Shown: piece by piece, positions 17,500 to 24,408 of the stretch | Position numbering within the stretch: position 1 is the stretch's first letter | Layout of the letters: each line of letters begins with the position of its first letter | Assembly (NCBI GenBank): GCA_009845835.1 | Contig: VXYV01000110.1 | Location: forward strand, 1-61,996 | Reading direction: 5' to 3' | Source of the DNA: Gammaproteobacteria bacterium | Lineage (GTDB): Bacteria > Pseudomonadota > Gammaproteobacteria > Pseudomonadales > Azotimanducaceae | Length of the DNA: 61,996 nucleotides | Made by a program: the position numbers and the translations under genes | The notes under the pieces: model-generated | Databases searched by the model: none | What the model saw: only the letters and a program-made list of their open reading frames with translations | Told to the model about the DNA's origin: nothing

Positions 17500-18138
17500 A
17501 TGAAATTCTTCATTTGCCTAATCAGCGCGCTGGTAATGTCGCTGCCAGTGTTCGCGCATGAAGCAACCAAAGAATCAGAACAATATTTTTCAAGCAATTG
17601 GTACTTTCTAATTGAGGGCTCACACTATACCGAAAATGACGACAGGGGTGTCGGTGATGGTTCCGGGATACGTTACGGCGGCGGAATTCAATTCAACAAA
17701 ATTTTTGGACTGGAACTTGCCATCGACCATGTACCAGAATATGAAGCCTCTTACGAATTCGACGATGTGAGCAGACGTGCCGGAAAGTACGTAGATAAGG
17801 CCGAAAACCATGTCTATAGTTCGCTATTGTGTACCTTCCGAGTACCTATTGACGAAACGGTGGATTTTGTCTGGAAACTTGGACTCAGCAGTTACCGCTA
17901 CGATCTTTTTATGGAATTCGAAAACGACCACCGGACAAACAACGGTGAGGACGAATCTAATCGTTCGATATTGGGTTACAAAAAAGACGAAAGTGGTGTT
18001 ACTCTTGCCGGTTCTGTTGGCGTGGAATTCCCCTTTGGACGTAGTGAAAACTTGTCGGTCGAAGTATCGCTAACCCGTCTTCTGGGAGACGACTCCGCTG
18101 GCGCTTCACTTAACGCTGGATTGAAATTTTCCTTTTAA
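17500..18138 (+). CDS. Outer-membrane beta-barrel protein (OmpA/opacity-like)
   Basis: The 212-residue product has a signal peptide (MKFFICLISALVMSLPVFA), then alternating hydrophobic/polar strands typical of a small eight-strand barrel, ending in the outer-membrane C-terminal signature LNAGLKFSF (terminal Phe). Loops are acidic. The ATG at 17500 is preferred to GTG 17476 because the signal peptide starts there. It is a paralogue of the next gene, sharing GVGDGSGI, GIQF and VPEYE-like segments. Its location beside the EF-hand cluster suggests a shared envelope function. The exact role is unknown. Confidence 0.75.
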   Translation: MKFFICLISALVMSLPVFAHEATKESEQYFSSNWYFLIEGSHYTENDDRGVGDGSGIRYGGGIQFNKIFGLELAIDHVPEYEASYEFDDVSRRAGKYVDKAENHVYSSLLCTFRVPIDETVDFVWKLGLSSYRYDLFMEFENDHRTNNGEDESNRSILGYKKDESGVTLAGSVGVEFPFGRSENLSVEVSLTRLLGDDSAGASLNAGLKFSF

Positions 18139-18158
18139 CAAGACTCCAAACTCATGTT

Positions 18159-18728
18159 GTGAAACGAGTTCTTAGCACATGTCTAGCCTTTACTACAGTA
18201 ATGCTTTCATGTGCCTACGGTGTAGAAGTAAACGAGAACCAAACCGGTAAATCGACTAAATGGTACCTCGTCGGCGGACTGCTACACTATACTAACAGCA
18301 GCGACCGCAACGTCGGCGACGGTCAAGGAATTTATGGCAGCGTTGGAATTCAATTCACCCGAACATTCGGCATAGAATTCATCGTCGATTATGTACCCGA
18401 ACATGAACCCGTTTCACCAGAGCAAGACCAAGCCACCCCAATAAGAAGTGGTCTCAAAGCAAAAAATCATGTCGCCAATTCATTGACGGGGACAATTAGA
18501 ACTAACGTCAGAGATACTTTAATGATAGTAGGTAAACTCGGAATCGCTGGGTACAGGTATGACTTAGATGAAGAAGACGACGGTGGTGTTTCATTCGTTG
18601 GTTCAATCGGTATTGATGTACCTCTTGGCGAATCAGATGATTGGTCTATCGAAGTGTCAATCACGCAGTTGTTTAGCGCGGAGACTGACGGTACTTCCTT
18701 GATCGCCGGACTGAAATACTCGTTCTGA
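18159..18728 (+). CDS. Outer-membrane beta-barrel protein, paralogue of the preceding gene
   Basis: The 189-residue product has a GTG start and a signal peptide ending near SCAYG. The mature part repeats the pattern of the upstream protein (HYTNSSDRNVGDGQGI, VGIQFTRTFGIEF, YVPEHE) and ends ASLIAGLKYSF-like, with the terminal Phe required for BAM recognition. It is about 20 residues shorter because one acidic loop is reduced. The 20-nt spacing to the upstream gene suggests an operon produced by tandem duplication. Confidence 0.72.
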   Translation: MKRVLSTCLAFTTVMLSCAYGVEVNENQTGKSTKWYLVGGLLHYTNSSDRNVGDGQGIYGSVGIQFTRTFGIEFIVDYVPEHEPVSPEQDQATPIRSGLKAKNHVANSLTGTIRTNVRDTLMIVGKLGIAGYRYDLDEEDDGGVSFVGSIGIDVPLGESDDWSIEVSITQLFSAETDGTSLIAGLKYSF

Positions 18729-18911
18729 CCAAGCTCTACTTATTGCATTGAAAATTCTCTATGAATTAATCACATCAAACATTAAAATTACATATTCCGA
18801 AGTTACCAAACCGAAGCGACGTGTATGTTGCTTTGCAAAACGAAGGATTTTATGTTTAGATTCGTTAAATCAAATAGTAATGTTTTTCCTAATTTCGCGA
18901 GGAAACCAAGT

Positions 18912-19718
18912 ATGAAAACAACTCACTCAATTTGTCTCTTTATGATCCTATTCACGTTAGCTCTTGCACCCGCAGCTTGGAGTCAGGAAAAAGAAATAAG
19001 CGCATACTCTGAAATAAAATTAAAAGAGGGATCTTATACTGAACTATTGGATCCGATCCATAAAAATATCACGGATTGGATCCATAAGGGAGTCAATATC
19101 AAAGAACTCAGAGAATCGACCGAAAAATCGTTTGAATTACTCGATCAAAATAATAACGGTCGTATCACTATCGATGAAATCGATATTGATTTCGACGAAG
19201 TCCCAAAGGAAGAAATGCGCTCCGCCAAACAACGCATGACCGTTGCCCAGCAAAAGTTTTTAACCTGGAACCGCGAAATTGACCGATTTGAAATCAGTGA
19301 TACGAATAAAGATAAAGTGCTAGACCGCAAAGAATACGAAACTAAAGACAAAACCGTCCGTACTCACTTGCTACAACTTGGTATCGAAGATCTAGATCTA
19401 GATAAGAACGGCAGCGTTGACCGCAAAGAATACGCCGCTAACCTCGACGCGTTAGAAGAATTGGACGAGGATGGCGACGGTTTCCTCTCAATGCAAGAAT
19501 TTGCGTCCTCCGGTGACACTTCTTTAGTCAGAGATTCACTCATGCATAAACTAGGTACTCTGTCGAACAACGCAAGTACCATGATTTACGCGTTAGACTC
19601 AAATCAACCACAAGTTATGATTGGGACGGAAGTTAACAAACTTAAAGACACGATCCAAGTAGACCGCTTTGAGTTTCACGAAAAAAAAGAAGAAGATTCT
19701 GAAGACAAACAGGAATAA
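18912..19718 (+). CDS. Exported EF-hand protein 1 (four calcium loops)
   Basis: The 268-residue product has a signal peptide (residues 1-25, ending AAWSQ). Four EF-hand loops are readable: 78-89 (DQNNNGRITIDE), 130-141 (DTNKDKVLDRKE), 162-173 (DLDKNGSVDRKE) and 185-196 (DEDGDGFLSMQE), most with Asp/Asn at positions 1, 3, 5 and Glu at 12. It should bind calcium in the periplasm. The C-terminal tail is charged (KKEEDSEDKQE). The ATG at 18912 has GAGGA 8 nt upstream; longer in-frame starts lack a signal peptide. It is the first of four tandem paralogues. Confidence 0.85.
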   Translation: MKTTHSICLFMILFTLALAPAAWSQEKEISAYSEIKLKEGSYTELLDPIHKNITDWIHKGVNIKELRESTEKSFELLDQNNNGRITIDEIDIDFDEVPKEEMRSAKQRMTVAQQKFLTWNREIDRFEISDTNKDKVLDRKEYETKDKTVRTHLLQLGIEDLDLDKNGSVDRKEYAANLDALEELDEDGDGFLSMQEFASSGDTSLVRDSLMHKLGTLSNNASTMIYALDSNQPQVMIGTEVNKLKDTIQVDRFEFHEKKEEDSEDKQE

Positions 19719-19812
19719 AGTTTGGGAGCCTAAGTTAGAACCCCTTGGAGCAACCGTGGGATCTTCCCGGTTTGCTAATGTAAATTACTACCATAAAAAG
19801 GCAGGAATCGCC

Positions 19813-20508
19813 ATGAAAACAAACACCCTTAGTTTAGCAGTTACCCTCCTAGTAACCGCTGCTTTACTCTCGATTTCCACTATGGCACAAGAACGCGAAG
19901 TCCGTTGGACCGCGTCAAGTAGTCAAAGTTGGCAAGGTTTTAACATCAAAGACATCAGAGAATCATCTGATGAAGCATTTGATCTTCTGGATGCAAACGA
20001 CAACGGCAGAATTACCCTCGATGAAATCGACATTGACTTCGAGAATCTATCGGAAGAAGAAGCCCGAAATATGCGCCGGCGGGTTAATCTCGCGCGTGGA
20101 AGGTTCATGAAATGGGACGCTGAAATTGATCGCTTCGATATCGCCGACACAAATAAAGACGCAGTACTCGATCGCTCCGAACGCGAAAATGAAGACAAGA
20201 GCGTCCGTACACATCTACTGCAATTGGGATTAGATGAGCTTGATACGGATAAAAACGGTAGTATTGATCGACAAGAATTTGGGGCTCATTTAGCCGATAT
20301 CGAAACCTTGGATGAAGATGGCAATGGGTACCTCACGCGGGAAGAGTTAGCAAATGCCGAAGATTCAGACACGGTTCGCTCTGCCCTTGGCCGTGCGTAT
20401 GAGTACAGGTGGGCAGTTGAAAAGGTAATTGAAAGGCGCGCGGCGGTAGAAGCAGCCGATCGCCAAAAAAGTGCCGACGAAACTGCGGAAAAACAAAAAC
20501 GTAACTGA
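19813..20508 (+). CDS. Exported EF-hand protein 2 (four calcium loops)
   Basis: The 231-residue product has a signal peptide ending STMAQ near residue 26. Loops lie at 60-71 (DANDNGRITLDE), 112-123 (DTNKDAVLDRSE), 144-155 (DTDKNGSIDRQE) and 167-178 (DEDGNGYLTREE). The shared stretch between loops 1 and 2 (MRRRVNLARG, FMKWDAEIDRF) and the loop spacing mark it as a close paralogue of its neighbours. It ends in an Arg/Ala/Lys-rich helix. AGGAA precedes the ATG at 19813. The same frame stays open for 51 codons after its TGA stop. Confidence 0.85.
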   Translation: MKTNTLSLAVTLLVTAALLSISTMAQEREVRWTASSSQSWQGFNIKDIRESSDEAFDLLDANDNGRITLDEIDIDFENLSEEEARNMRRRVNLARGRFMKWDAEIDRFDIADTNKDAVLDRSERENEDKSVRTHLLQLGLDELDTDKNGSIDRQEFGAHLADIETLDEDGNGYLTREELANAEDSDTVRSALGRAYEYRWAVEKVIERRAAVEAADRQKSADETAEKQKRN

Positions 20509-20739
20509 ATTCTTGAACGAATTCCAGAAACCGTTCGCGATAAATTTGATTGGTATGTCTCTGACGTTCTCACAGCCGAGACTCCGAAAACGAAGAATCG
20601 AACGCTGACAGGAACAAATGTGATTATCAGTTTCACCAATGCGTTAGGTTGTTACATTGGTTAGATAAACAAAGGAAATTTTTTTCAAATACGTAAATAA
20701 TTAGTACGTTTCCATTTAATTTTAATTCGCGGAATCACA

Positions 20740-22116
20740 ATGAAATCAATTACTATGAGATTAGTCGTTTCTGTCCTAGTCTTGAGCAGTTTTACCTTAG
20801 CCAATATGGTGCAGGCACACAGTGTCGTGAAGCGCACAACAAGTATCAATGATCTCCGGGATTCTTCGGACGAAGTATTCGACGTACTCGATGTCAACAA
20901 CAACGATAGAATCACCTTCGACGAGATCGGGTTTAACCTCGAAAACTCTTCGGAAGAAGAGGCTGAAACTCTACGACGACGCGTCATGTATGTGCACGAA
21001 GAGTTTAAGAAATCCATTGATCGATTTGATATTGCCGACACCAACAAAGATACAGTACTTGACCGTGAAGAACGCGAAAATGAAGATAAGAGCTTTCTCA
21101 AACACTTACGCAAGTTAGGTTTAGTTGAACTAGATACTGATAAAAAAGGTAGTATTGATCGGCAAGAATTTGATGCCTATCTAACCACACTAATACAAAT
21201 AGATGACGACGGGAATGGCTACCTGACTCGAGAAGAGCTAGCTAACTTAGGAGTTTCCGAAGAAATTCAGGCAGCCCTAGGTCGAGAATTACTGCATGTA
21301 ATTCGGGTTCGTTGGGACTCCAAACAAAGAAGCATCGACAAAGAAGAGCTTTTTGATACCGGAGGGATATACGATGTATTTGACATAGAAAATCAACAAG
21401 GGCGTAGAGATGAAGAAGTACGATCCAGTTCCTCGAGTGATCAAAGTTGGCAAGGCTATAACATCAACGAACTCCGGAATTCGTCAAACAAGGCTTTTGA
21501 TCTAATTGATGTCAATAATGACGGTAGAGTCAAATTTGACGAAATCGATTTCGGCCTCGAAAACTTTTCGGAAGATGAAATTTCTCGAGATTCACGATTA
21601 CGCGCCCAACTTGCCCACAACAAATTCATCGAAAAACGAGATACAGAGATCGATCGATTTGCTATCGCCGATACCAATAACGACGCAGCACTTGACCGTG
21701 AAGAACGCAAAAATGAAGATGAGAGCGTTCGCATCCACGTACTGCAATTAAGTTTCGATGAACTAGATACAGATAGAAACGGTAGTTTAGATCGGCAAGA
21801 ATTTAGTCCCCATCTAACCATTCTTGACGGCCTCGATGACGACGAGAACGGTTACGTGAATCAAGAAGAGTTCGCTAACTTAGGAGCTTCCGAAGAATTG
21901 CGAGCCGTCTTATTTCGAGAATTATGGGTCGATTTTCGAGTTCGTTGGGTCGCCGAACAGATAATTGAAGAAAAGGAAGCATTAAGACAATTACAACAGA
22001 CAGTTCAGCGTCTTTGGCGCGACGAACGGAGAAGCGACGTAGTAAAAGCAATACAGCAACGGCAGCGAGATGAAGAAACTAAAAAGCGTCGCGAGAAAAT
22101 AAACAACGAGAATTAA
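20740..22116 (+). CDS. Exported EF-hand protein 3, duplicated eight-loop form
   Basis: The 458-residue product has a signal peptide ending VQAHS and two tandem copies of the four-EF-hand module (about residues 35-195 and 235-400). Module 1 loops read DVNNNDRITFDE, DTNKDTVLDREE, DTDKKGSIDRQE and DDDGNGYLTREE. Module 2 loops read DVNNDGRVKFDE, DTNNDAALDREE, DTDRNGSLDRQE and DDDENGYVNQEE. Several loops lack Gly at position 6, so affinities may differ. The join contains SSSSDQSWQGYNINEL, matching the mature N-terminus of EF-hand protein 2. That suggests fusion of two neighbouring copies. A long Arg/Glu/Gln helix ends the protein. Confidence 0.85.
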   Translation: MKSITMRLVVSVLVLSSFTLANMVQAHSVVKRTTSINDLRDSSDEVFDVLDVNNNDRITFDEIGFNLENSSEEEAETLRRRVMYVHEEFKKSIDRFDIADTNKDTVLDREERENEDKSFLKHLRKLGLVELDTDKKGSIDRQEFDAYLTTLIQIDDDGNGYLTREELANLGVSEEIQAALGRELLHVIRVRWDSKQRSIDKEELFDTGGIYDVFDIENQQGRRDEEVRSSSSSDQSWQGYNINELRNSSNKAFDLIDVNNDGRVKFDEIDFGLENFSEDEISRDSRLRAQLAHNKFIEKRDTEIDRFAIADTNNDAALDREERKNEDESVRIHVLQLSFDELDTDRNGSLDRQEFSPHLTILDGLDDDENGYVNQEEFANLGASEELRAVLFRELWVDFRVRWVAEQIIEEKEALRQLQQTVQRLWRDERRSDVVKAIQQRQRDEETKKRREKINNEN

Positions 22117-22176
22117 CCTCAATTTCGTATATATAAGTGAAGTTTCTACCAAAATAGAGAGAGGAGGAGACTCATC

Positions 22177-22941
22177 ATGAAAACAATCACCACAAATTTA
22201 GTTATCGTTTTACTAGTTATTGCCGGATTTGCTATCGCTACCCCTGTTCAAGCTCAAGATGGAAGGTACCGCGTAATTTCCGAAGATAGTGCTACCTGGT
22301 TCAGCAAAGGTTTCAATATCAATGAACTCCGAGAATCTACCAACTCTTCGTTCGACTTGCTCGATGCGGATAGCAATGGTCGAATCAGTTTAGACGAAAT
22401 CGACATCGACTTCGAGAAAGTGACCGAAGATCAAGCACAAACTATGCGCCGTCGAGCCCGAGTCGCTCAGGAAAAATTTATGAAATGGGACGCGGAAATC
22501 GATCGCTTTGATATCTGTGATACTAATCAAGATGGTGTGATGGACCGAGACGAGTTTGATAACGAAGAGAAAAATATTCGTAGACACCGACTTCAGTTGG
22601 GATTAGATGAACTAGACACTGACCGGAATGGTAGCGTTGACCGAGGCGAATTTAGTGCCCATCTCGATTCACTCGAAGAAATGGATGAAGATGGCGATGG
22701 ATATTTATCACGAAAGGAATATTCAAAGTCAGACAATCCAGCACTACTCCGTGATGCCTTCAGTCAATCTTTTCGCGTATTCGGTCGGGATGATGGCAGC
22801 AGCACCAATATGGTGCGCTTTAAAACTGAAGATGGGGTCGAAGTTGAATCCGATGTCAAAGTCGAAAAAAGAATCTATCTGAACGTCGATAACGTAAATA
22901 TAACAGGTAAAGACGAAGACAGCGCTTCAGAATCTGAGTAA
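22177..22941 (+). CDS. Exported EF-hand protein 4 (four calcium loops)
   Basis: The 254-residue product has a signal peptide ending VQAQD. Its four loops are the most canonical of the set: DADSNGRISLDE, DTNQDGVMDRDE, DTDRNGSVDRGE and DEDGDGYLSRKE, all with Gly at position 6. A beta-rich tail follows (EVESDVKVEKRIYLNV). A very strong AGGAGGAG site lies about 10 nt before the ATG, unlike its paralogues, so it may be the most highly expressed. It lies 52 nt upstream of the ECF sigma gene. Confidence 0.87.
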   Translation: MKTITTNLVIVLLVIAGFAIATPVQAQDGRYRVISEDSATWFSKGFNINELRESTNSSFDLLDADSNGRISLDEIDIDFEKVTEDQAQTMRRRARVAQEKFMKWDAEIDRFDICDTNQDGVMDRDEFDNEEKNIRRHRLQLGLDELDTDRNGSVDRGEFSAHLDSLEEMDEDGDGYLSRKEYSKSDNPALLRDAFSQSFRVFGRDDGSSTNMVRFKTEDGVEVESDVKVEKRIYLNVDNVNITGKDEDSASESE

Positions 22942-22993
22942 TACGACACGTTGGCAGTCCAGTCGTTAGGTCTTAGCAAGATCCGATTCTTTC

Positions 22994-23536
22994 TTGAACA
23001 TCAAAGAATCCGATGCGACACTAATGCTTCGAGTGCAAAAAGGCGACGAAATCGCGTTTGAGCAATTGATGAATCGACATACTAACGCCGTTCACTCCTA
23101 CATTTTCAGGATGTGTCAAAACGTGCAAATTGCCGAAGAGCTAGTTCAAGAAACATTCTTACGTGTTTGGGCTAAATCCAAATTATGGATCCCCAATAAA
23201 GCGAAGTTCTCAACTTGGATGTATCAAATTGCACGCAATTTATGTATTGATCATTACAAAAAACAACGCGCCCAATTTGTTGACGACGTAGACTTTGACC
23301 GAATCGCCGATGACTCATTGCGGCGTGACGAAATCCTAATCTTGACTTTACAAAAAGCAATTCAGACTCTACCTGAACGGCAAAAAACCGCGTTCGTGCT
23401 CTGTCAAGTTGAAGGTTGGTCGCAAGCAGAAGTGGCTGAATTGTTGGATTCGTCGGTAGATGCAGTAGAATCGTTACTGTCTAGAGCACGCCGAAAATTA
23501 CGTGAAATCCTTGGGAGTACACAACAACATCAATAG
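22994..23536 (+). CDS. ECF-subfamily RNA polymerase sigma factor
   Basis: Directs RNA polymerase to a stress or envelope regulon. The 180-residue product has region 2 (FEQLMNRHTNAVHSYIFRM, EELVQETFLRVW, STWMYQIARNLCIDHYK) and region 4 (LPERQKTAFVLCQVEGWSQA, VESLLSRARRKLRE), with no region 1.1 or 3, typical of ECF sigmas. The start is uncertain: TTG at 22994 fits family length, while ATG at 23024 would trim region 2 slightly. A probable anti-sigma gene begins 4 nt after the stop. The neighbouring EF-hand and barrel genes are candidate targets. Confidence 0.93.
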   Translation: MNIKESDATLMLRVQKGDEIAFEQLMNRHTNAVHSYIFRMCQNVQIAEELVQETFLRVWAKSKLWIPNKAKFSTWMYQIARNLCIDHYKKQRAQFVDDVDFDRIADDSLRRDEILILTLQKAIQTLPERQKTAFVLCQVEGWSQAEVAELLDSSVDAVESLLSRARRKLREILGSTQQHQ

Positions 23537-23540
23537 AAAG

Positions 23541-23960
23541 ATGAACATTCAAGAGCTAGGCAACTTACTCGACCGTCATGGATCAGATTTGAACCAATGG
23601 CCTGATCAACAATTAAGACAGCAAGTGCAATCATATATCGCCGAATCCGCGGAAGCTCACGAGTTGTTTTCGCAAGTGCAGTACATTGATCGGTTAGTAC
23701 CAAAAGCTTTGTTTGTCCCACAACCCACAAATGTTGAAGCAAAGGTTTTGAATCAAATTTCAACCGTCCGGCAACCTAATTACAATTGGTATCGACACGT
23801 TTCTAACTGGGTGCTAAAACCAATACTGGCTATGATCCCATTAGTGATAGGATTCATACTCGGTAGTGGCCCCAACCAGGATGTACTTTTAGTAGAGGAA
23901 GAACTGACTACAGAACGATTTGAAGATCCAGTCAATTACCTAGCAATGTCGGATGACTAA
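23541..23960 (+). CDS. Probable anti-sigma factor (single-span membrane protein)
   Basis: The 139-residue product starts with MNIQELGNLLDRHGSDLNQW, resembling small proteins coded next to ECF sigma genes with a LxxxGxDLxxWP motif. One membrane span lies at about residues 92-110 (ILAMIPLVIGFILGSG), giving a cytoplasmic N-terminal part able to hold the sigma factor and a short periplasmic tail. The start at 23541 is 4 nt after the sigma stop. No zinc-finger HxxxCxxC is present. The role is inferred from position, length and topology. Confidence 0.7.
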   Translation: MNIQELGNLLDRHGSDLNQWPDQQLRQQVQSYIAESAEAHELFSQVQYIDRLVPKALFVPQPTNVEAKVLNQISTVRQPNYNWYRHVSNWVLKPILAMIPLVIGFILGSGPNQDVLLVEEELTTERFEDPVNYLAMSDD

Positions 23961-24408
23961 ACAAAAGGTACTTGTCTTTGCGCTATGTGTATCGGTCGTA
24001 CTTAATCTCGGTGTAATCGGATACCTTATCGGCCAACACATCTCCGAACATCGACCTGACAACAGTTCTGAGATGCAGGTCGGTTTTTCTCGTTTACTAC
24101 GAGCATTACCACAGGATCGGGTCGAGGAACTCATGCCTGACCTCGAGAATCATCGGCAATCAATGCGCTCCCTATATGGTCGAGTGATTGATACTAGAAA
24201 CCAACTCTACAAAGCAATGCACGCCGAACCGTTTGACATCAACCTCCTACGAAAAGCGTCAGAAATGCACGCTCGATCGCTGTCTAATGCACGCGAACAC
24301 TCGGATCAATTCTTTATTGAACTCTACGAACAATTGAGTCCTGCAGAACGACGACAAATGTTTGACAAAGCATTCAAAGAACTACAAGAGAGTAAGGAAA
24401 CTGAATAA
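23953..24408 (+). CDS. Periplasmic heavy-metal-sensor-like protein (CnrX/Spy/CpxP fold)
   Basis: The 151-residue product has an N-terminal membrane anchor (about residues 6-27) and a periplasmic all-helical domain with ALPQDRVEELMPDL, a long central helix (RQSMRSLYGRVIDTRNQL) and LSPAERRQMFDKAF. This is the helical-hairpin pattern of metal-resistance sensors such as CnrX and of Spy/CpxP stress proteins. It has no Cys and few His in the mature part, so the ligand may not be a soft metal. It overlaps the anti-sigma gene by 8 nt, so sensor, anti-sigma and sigma are likely a functional unit. Confidence 0.75.
   Translation: MTKQKVLVFALCVSVVLNLGVIGYLIGQHISEHRPDNSSEMQVGFSRLLRALPQDRVEELMPDLENHRQSMRSLYGRVIDTRNQLYKAMHAEPFDINLLRKASEMHARSLSNAREHSDQFFIELYEQLSPAERRQMFDKAFKELQESKETE

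Follow-up and report, generated by a model that had tools for sequence, protein, structure and literature searches.

A conserved sigma factor, probable anti-sigma and PF13801 gene set beside exported EF-hand genes in Pseudomonadota

Introduction

Contig VXYV01000110.1 of a Gammaproteobacteria bacterium of the Azotimanducaceae (61,996 nucleotides (nt), analysed at full length and referred to as the window; contig C62 of an assembly of 2.54 Mb in 122 contigs) carries four consecutive genes for exported EF-hand proteins in front of genes for an extracytoplasmic function (ECF) sigma factor, a one-span membrane protein and a periplasmic helical protein of family PF13801. The locus raises the question of whether the EF-hand proteins and the sigma factor belong to one system and, if so, which of them acts on the other. 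An earlier reading of the same DNA made from its letters alone (the sequence-only reading) had proposed that calcium or another divalent ion, bound by the EF-hand proteins, feeds into or is controlled by the sigma factor. Comparison with related genomes and with published systems makes it moderately probable that the genes form an autoregulated envelope-stress sigma module, in which the EF-hand proteins are the output with possible feedback and the probable anti-sigma and the PF13801 protein act as the sensor.

Results

Gene order at the locus and in related genomes

The EF-hand, sigma, anti-sigma and PF13801 genes all lie on one strand, and with two predicted promoters they are arranged as follows.

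18841..18866, + strand: predicted sigma-dependent promoter, CGAAGGATT-N13-CGTT, 5' of EF1 (matrix scan and genome pattern search)
18912..19718, + strand: EF1, exported, 4 EF-hand loops (Pfam EF-hand, best E 3.3e-10)
19813..20508, + strand: EF2, exported, 4 EF-hand loops (Pfam EF-hand, best E 4e-13)
20670..20695, + strand: second, weaker predicted promoter, CAAAGGAAA-N13-CGTA, 5' of EF3 (matrix scan and loosened pattern)
20740..22116, + strand: EF3, exported, internally duplicated, 8 EF-hand loops (Pfam EF-hand, best E 1.3e-18)
22177..22941, + strand: EF4, exported, 4 EF-hand loops, adjoining the sigma gene (Pfam EF-hand, best E 1.4e-11)
22994..23536, + strand: ECF sigma factor, TTG start, on the branch of Caulobacter SigV-type sigmas (Sigma70_r2 1.2e-19, r4_2 5.1e-20)
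23541..23960, + strand: probable one-span anti-sigma with N-terminal Asf6-like domain and GxxxG in its membrane helix (profile homology)
23953..24408, + strand: membrane-anchored periplasmic helical protein, PF13801 (CnrX/NccX/Spy-like), with SxxxN in its membrane helix (Metal_resist E 6.7e-15, above cut-off)

The four exported EF-hand genes with 20 loops, the ECF sigma, the one-span protein and the PF13801 protein were thus recovered, with Pfam support, where the sequence-only reading had placed them, and the tight spacing it described was found as well (a gap of 4 nt between the sigma and anti-sigma genes and an overlap of 8 nt between the anti-sigma and PF13801 genes). The one-span protein matched no Pfam family (best E 0.13). 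A regular expression recovered 4+4+7+4 = 19 loops, and the eighth loop of EF3, DTDKKGSIDRQE, was read by eye, giving 20.

In order to evaluate the conservation of this arrangement, 58 genomes were searched, namely the window's own, 17 others of its genus, 19 of its family and 21 of its order. Sigma, anti-sigma and PF13801 genes stood in a row in 15 of the 18 genus genomes, the window genome included, and an EF-hand gene lay 5' of 13 of these 15 modules, in four copies in the window, two in G001 and one elsewhere. In G003 and G007 the module has no EF-hand gene and the promoter described below is kept, ending 250 and 332 nt 5' of the sigma gene (L042 9097-9122; L044 8988-9013). No close sigma was found in G004 and G006, and G012 has a sigma fragment only. 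An EF-hand gene with the sigma was observed in 16 of the 19 family genomes, all 16 of which carry a PF13801-type gene (that of L059 by profile only, 101 bits); the nearest sigma locus of G022 (L288) is no module, and G034 and G035 have distant sigmas only. In the order the analysis took in four loci from three genomes: L062 (G044) carries the anti-sigma and PF13801 genes with no EF-hand gene, and L065, L294 and L295 are no modules. As a control, 20 further ECF loci of related genomes were read. Three of these (L283, L284 and L290) proved to be module copies, all with an EF-hand gene, while none of the remaining 17 has one; three of the 17 gave one weak match each to an anti-sigma or PF13801 profile (E 5e-5 to 2e-4). 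The association of EF-hand, sigma, anti-sigma and PF13801 genes therefore exceeds chance.

The same gene order extends through the phylum. An anti-sigma profile (A2) matched 58 of 398 Pseudomonadota genomes at E <= 0.001, own genome counted, and among the 29 loci read besides the window's own, 24 have an EF-hand gene, 26 a PF13801-type gene and 25 a called sigma. Named genomes were scanned with Caulobacteraceae sigmas, and the best 80 of 568 relatives were analysed. A PF13801-type gene was present in 79 of these 80 loci and an EF-hand gene in 45; the rule applied gave 46, of which L153 was rejected as a chance match within a 973-residue frame. In a further 16 (15 of the 19 Burkholderiaceae loci, and Achromobacter) the position of the EF-hand gene before sigma, anti-sigma and PF13801 is occupied by a gene for an exported WXXGXW-repeat protein, for one of which, L184 (2687-3031), PF12779 was confirmed. 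Neither gene was found in 19, and the EF-hand gene is also absent from the Asticcacaulis loci read. As the first gene varies in this way, the sigma, anti-sigma and PF13801 genes are the core. The module DNA of G378, a genome of the same class as that of the window, is 84-87% identical to Burkholderia loci (L089), which would make this class the Gammaproteobacteria as GTDB defines them. Conservation of the neighbourhood, which the sequence-only reading had put forward as one check, thus holds for the order EF-hand, sigma, anti-sigma, PF13801 in the genus, the family, the phylum and Caulobacter.

The module sigmas are also related by descent. A tree of 73 rows (52 module sigmas, RpoE6 of Azospirillum brasilense and 20 controls, one of them very long-branched; rooted for drawing only) was computed after leaving out the near-copies L037, L038, L039 and L041 and 60 of the 80 named loci. 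One branch, with support of 99/97, holds all 52 module sigmas, RpoE6 and the control L062. The branch label needs two changes because L062, which itself carries anti-sigma and PF13801 genes, had been entered as a control. The window sigma is grouped on this same 99/97 branch with those of the Caulobacter loci L211 and L151. Its best NCBIfam family is NF004113 (PRK05602), at 162.4 bits under a cut-off of 208; the L211 sigma scores 295.8 bits.

A shared promoter in front of the first gene

Counting of word pairs 5' of the EF-hand gene put the best pairs in 23 of 41 named loci, compared to 5 in the best shuffle, and in 7 of 24 gammaproteobacterial loci, compared to 3. The motif that resulted, CG[AT][CA][GA]G[AG]nn-N13-CGT[AT], with the consensus CGACGGAWT-N13-CGTW, is present in 57 of the 68 regions taken at EF-hand starts, 21 of 25 in genus and family and 36 of 43 in named loci, compared to 0.33 expected by shuffling, counts that are to be read with the motif having been derived from largely the same sequences; a stricter motif occurs in 33 of 66 loci (0.02 expected). 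In Caulobacter vibrioides the promoter of the EF-hand gene cabp has been mapped by rapid amplification of 5' cDNA ends (5'RACE) as GGAAA-13-CGTTCA, boxes that its authors read as SigT-like too (PMC13171946). Judged by sequence, the shared motif agrees with this mapped promoter. From the end of the motif it is 51 nt to the chosen start in L211 and 45 nt to the EF1 ATG in the window.

Three matrices trained without the window (two gammaproteobacterial, one alpha/beta) were used to scan it. With each of them 18841-18866 was the top site of the whole window on both strands, and it is the position of this site in front of EF1 that carries the claim of a promoter there. The EF3 site, 20670-20695, ranked third and fourth with the gammaproteobacterial matrices and was missing from the 14 best sites of the alpha/beta matrix. 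When the pattern was relaxed until it covered both sites, it matched four places in the 2.54 Mb assembly, two of which are these sites. Accordingly, of the five gene starts at which the sequence-only reading had suggested a common ECF promoter, EF1 and, more weakly, EF3 bear it out; EF2, EF4 and the sigma gene do not. A scan for promoter and terminator consensus sequences and Rfam gave nothing for the locus. Terminator-like sites between 17200 and 25100 were all on the - strand (10 of 10), which agrees with joint transcription of the module genes.

In the 18 genus genomes a strict motif, which misses the window's own two sites, matched 19 times, compared to 6 for the reversed pattern. Of the 19 matches, nine belong to module loci, including one in front of the sigma fragment of G012, and ten fall elsewhere. 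As no recurring downstream gene was seen by eye among these ten, a regulon beyond the module was rejected and autoregulation only is claimed.

Correspondence to cabp-sigV of Caulobacter

In C. vibrioides cabp, which encodes a periplasmic protein with three EF hands, adjoins the ECF gene sigV (CCNA_02838-CCNA_02837) and is reported to be induced by Ca2+ depletion with EGTA and by acid (pH 4) and to be modulated by SigV (PMC13171946). The membrane link of this circuit is marked "?" there, and no anti-sigma or sensor gene is named (PMC13171946).

A close sigma was found in 48 of 75 genomes of Caulobacter, the genus of G310, whose module locus L084 matches L126 (Caulobacter sp.) at 100% identity across 3366 nt. 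Thirty of the 48 loci were read. An EF-hand homologue precedes the sigma in 29 (28 with three or more readable loops), a PF13801 gene lies 3' of it in 28, and the three loci with a missing part stop at a contig end. In L211 four published primers fall in order with 0 or 1 mismatch, 5' of the EF-hand gene, in the gap between EF-hand and sigma genes, within the sigma gene and at the sigma gene's end; a further two have sites in the EF-hand gene at 3 and 4 mismatches, and another two match nowhere within 4 mismatches. The L211 EF-hand protein has three loops; counted from an internal Met it is 134 residues long and from the first Met 148, compared to the 133 reported (PMC13171946). On the 3' side of the L211 sigma lie an anti-sigma gene and a PF13801 gene (E 1.6e-15). 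The EF-hand and sigma genes of these Caulobacter relatives correspond, on sequence and gene order, to the cabp-sigV pair. The anti-sigma and PF13801 genes behind them are thus candidates for the missing membrane link.

The probable anti-sigma and its partner in the membrane

The anti-sigma profile matched Asf6 of A. brasilense, picked from the strain Sp 7 record via gene order and its length of 98 amino acids, with a score of 52.4 bits in positions 1-75; among 1000 Asf6 shuffles the highest score was 6.9. Asf6 is reported to interact with and oppose RpoE6, and RpoE8 of the same species to head an operon of sigma, hypothetical and periplasmic heavy metal sensor genes and to activate its own promoter (PMC12826043). 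In another A. brasilense strain the locus with the RpoE8 gene order (matched by order, not by locus tag) encodes a hypothetical protein that falls in the anti-sigma family (45.0 bits) and carries a PF13801 gene. The one-span protein of the window is therefore probably an anti-sigma. Short stand-alone Asf6-like genes by flagellar-looking genes, with no adjacent sigma called, were observed in L072, L073 and L078, three of the five phylum loci without an EF-hand gene. A Phaeobacter record is annotated as EF-hand, sigma, hypothetical and periplasmic heavy metal sensor, the last of which scores 44 bits with the profiles.

Both membrane helices carry conserved small or polar residues. In rows of chosen members (the anti-sigma alignment A6, selected for clean gene ends, left out 49 of the 80 named loci), G104 and G108 of the anti-sigma helix (GxxxG) are present in 18/18 and 32/32 rows. 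In the PF13801 helix Asn18 is present in 20/20 and 33/33 and Ser14 in 20/20 and 30/33. The window row stands in both sets and is thus counted twice among the 50 GxxxG and 53 Asn18 rows. The two helices probably pair in the membrane, GxxxG with SxxxN.

Local expansion of the EF-hand genes and the genes around the module

In a tree of 31 EF-hand sequences, with EF3 split in halves, the five window units form one branch (support 99/96) on which the EF3 halves are sisters, and G001 was the only relative in the tree with a second EF-hand gene. Queried with EF4, the window's own assembly gave five matches, all within the EF-hand cluster. The amplification is, by this tree, a local duplication in the window lineage, as the sequence-only reading had supposed. 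Lanmodulin and XopAW were considered as identities of the EF-hand proteins and rejected, the best scores being 32.4 bits against a cut-off of 135 (NF053806) and 36.6 bits against 120 (NF041410), respectively.

Two barrel genes precede the cluster.

17500..18138, + strand: OMP1, exported beta-barrel, PF13505 (Pfam E 3.8e-8)
18159..18728, + strand: OMP2, paralogue of OMP1, PF13505 (OMP_b-brl; Pfam E 2.8e-8)

They are paralogues, as had been read from the sequence, with 44% identity over residues 8-139 of OMP2. Their inclusion in the unit was given up: contig C17 of the window's assembly carries two more relatives, 10 other genomes among the 18 searched in the genus have related barrels at other places, no barrel gene stands beside the module in the relatives whose neighbourhoods were read, and no promoter motif precedes the pair. 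The two barrels are probably unrelated to the module. Divergent from them is a gene for a ZIP-family metal transporter (PF02535, 16473-17279). Directly 3' of the module follows a gene for a Syd-family protein (PF07348, 24436-25029), and genes of similar length trail the module in many relatives. Beyond it lies a 952-residue frame, which we take to be UvrA.

Discussion

The order, conservation and homologies of the genes, the conserved promoter and the duplication are consistent with the following mechanism for an autoregulated module. At rest the ECF sigma would be held by the anti-sigma, through the Asf6-like domain that this one-span protein has in the cytoplasm. The PF13801 protein, anchored in the inner membrane and exposing its helical domain to the periplasm, would control the anti-sigma, the membrane helices of the two probably pairing. 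A periplasmic disturbance, which by analogy to Caulobacter may be low free Ca2+ or acid, would loosen the anti-sigma, and the freed sigma would then transcribe its own operon from CGACGGAWT-N13-CGTW before the EF-hand gene. This would result in exported EF-hand proteins along with more sigma, anti-sigma and sensor. These EF-hand proteins would act as a Ca2+ buffer of the periplasm, perhaps with feedback on the sensor. In the window species the output appears to have been enlarged via tandem duplication to four genes with 20 loops and a second predicted promoter.

Several observations weigh against this reading. The motif is absent from 11 of the 68 loci and, in the window, from EF2, EF4, the sigma gene and the barrels. 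The EF1 site scores 15.8 bits, below all 21 gammaproteobacterial training sites (lowest 17.9), and was exceeded in 3, 3 and 1 of 20 shuffled windows with the three matrices. The Phaeobacter hypothetical protein scores just 5.6 and 12.1 bits with two anti-sigma profiles. According to the Caulobacter study, cabp and sigV are each transcribed alone from a promoter of their own, and both also depend on SigT, for which the authors see boxes in both promoters (PMC13171946). Furthermore, the cabp promoter is less strongly induced by EGTA when CaBP is missing (PMC13171946), so that CaBP is more than an output in Caulobacter. Locus L211, finally, is from a close relative of C. vibrioides and not from NA1000, which is not among the 75 Caulobacter genomes since the exact cabp-sigV junction primer is absent from all of them.

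A chance neighbourhood, with EF-hand genes beside an unrelated sigma cluster, is barely credible: nothing was found in its favour, and it is refuted by the conservation (24 of 29 phylum loci with an EF-hand gene against 0 of 17 other ECF loci) and by the shared promoter. The dependence of EGTA induction on CaBP (PMC13171946) speaks for the alternative that the EF-hand protein is the true calcium sensor, its Ca2+-free or Ca2+-bound form touching the PF13801 protein or the anti-sigma, with four copies making a graded sensor; the EF-hand gene also adjoins the sensor genes in many lineages. Against this, no EF-hand gene accompanies the core set in L062 (G044), in those Burkholderiaceae and Asticcacaulis loci that were read, or in the genus members G003 and G007, both with the promoter retained. 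We regard this alternative as rather unlikely, since a gene that is not obligatory is more likely output or feedback than an obligatory sensor. The sequence-only reading is supported in part, and its regulatory logic was mostly right. Its link between calcium and the sigma factor is supported by the answer of cabp-sigV to Ca2+ depletion and acid (PMC13171946), while the EF-hand gene turned out not to be a fixed part.

Two further alternatives concern the PF13801 protein, which could sense a transition metal like CnrX, the EF-hand proteins being general divalent-ion buffers and calcium incidental, or could be a Spy-like chaperone reporting misfolded envelope proteins, with low Ca2+ and acid acting through unfolding only. 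Searched against the PDB, the family profile of PF13801 relatives had NccX on top (E 0.0014) and the Cnr chain 2y3h, which we take to be CnrX, at 0.69 with ribosome recycling factors between, a marginal result. The alpha/beta profile had Spy chains among its top matches at 0.0051 and above, marginal too as unrelated chains score alike. The PF13801 match itself, the ZIP-type transporter gene upstream and a Roseomonas copy followed by efflux genes would suit metal sensing. Against it, in 20 sensor relatives neither Cys nor, past the start, Met fills half of the rows of any column (one His column, 12/20), CnrX signalling is reported to require Met123 (PMC7689651), and the window operon holds no efflux genes. 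As the Met ligand is not conserved, a CnrX-type metal sensor was rejected and metal sensing appears improbable. What stands of the CnrX/Spy-like sensor in the sequence-only reading is the PF13801 match and the CnrX-like architecture. The chaperone alternative is unlikely as well; acid does induce cabp (PMC13171946), and against it, besides the marginal matches, LTXXQ had no match in the window protein and one under the cut-off in L211 (E 0.025).

The autoregulated module can be set against known systems. Gene order in CnrYXH differs from that of the window module. CnrYXH/NccX of Cupriavidus likewise combines an ECF sigma, a membrane anti-sigma and a membrane-anchored periplasmic sensor (PMC7689651); the window differs by its non-conserved Met123-type ligand and by having EF-hand proteins as partner. 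No resistance-nodulation-division (RND) efflux genes adjoin the window module, where the next genes are Syd and the 952-residue frame. In Roseomonas marmotae (L274 2390-5513) efflux genes of the outer-membrane and adaptor kinds come directly after sigma, hypothetical and periplasmic sensor genes that have no EF-hand gene with them, an order resembling that of CnrYXH. The autoactivated RpoE8 operon shares sigma, hypothetical and sensor genes (PMC12826043), whereas no EF-hand gene is listed beside the RpoE8-order locus read, where annotation is incomplete. Asf6, reported to interact with its sigma (PMC12826043), has the same cytoplasmic domain as the window anti-sigma, yet is shorter and sits with flagellar genes. 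EfhP of Pseudomonas aeruginosa is an EF-hand protein of predicted periplasmic presence that affects transcription, including that of ECF genes, while no accompanying ECF/anti-sigma operon is described in the portion of the source at hand (PMC11559002). The closest likeness is cabp-sigV, with an exported EF-hand gene directly 5' of an ECF sigma of the same branch (via L211 and L151), the same promoter boxes and spacing and, in Caulobacter genomes, anti-sigma and PF13801 genes next. It differs in its single three-loop protein, compared to four proteins with 20 loops in the window, and in its reported monocistronic transcription. The sequence-only reading knew of no such described system, a statement overtaken by cabp-sigV since May 2026 (PMC13171946). 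In our literature search that paper alone gave an EF-hand gene with an ECF gene of its own; many journals and the main ECF classification papers lay outside the search, so the group may be named in print. The present comparison adds the anti-sigma/sensor pair conserved behind genes of the cabp-sigV type, the promoter that the loci share, the exchange of the first gene between loci, and the amplification of EF-hand genes in the window lineage.

A wider proposal, which we put forward tentatively and with some doubt, is that these loci represent a widespread unnamed calcium- and acid-responsive ECF class in Pseudomonadota. A PF13801 protein without the known metal ligand would sense the envelope and signal to an Asf6-type anti-sigma by intramembrane helix pairing (SxxxN/GxxxG), and EF-hand proteins made under the sigma would serve to restore periplasmic calcium or to report on it. 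Little is known of how bacteria perceive and handle calcium in the periplasm. The analysis names two adjacent genes, carried with a conserved promoter code by many Pseudomonadota, as candidates for the missing circuit component, and the changing first gene (EF-hand, WXXGXW or neither) suggests that one sensor can drive different exported products. If the proposal is true, the missing membrane link in the CaBP-SigV circuit of Caulobacter would be supplied by these genes, and the window would represent a lineage with amplified calcium output.

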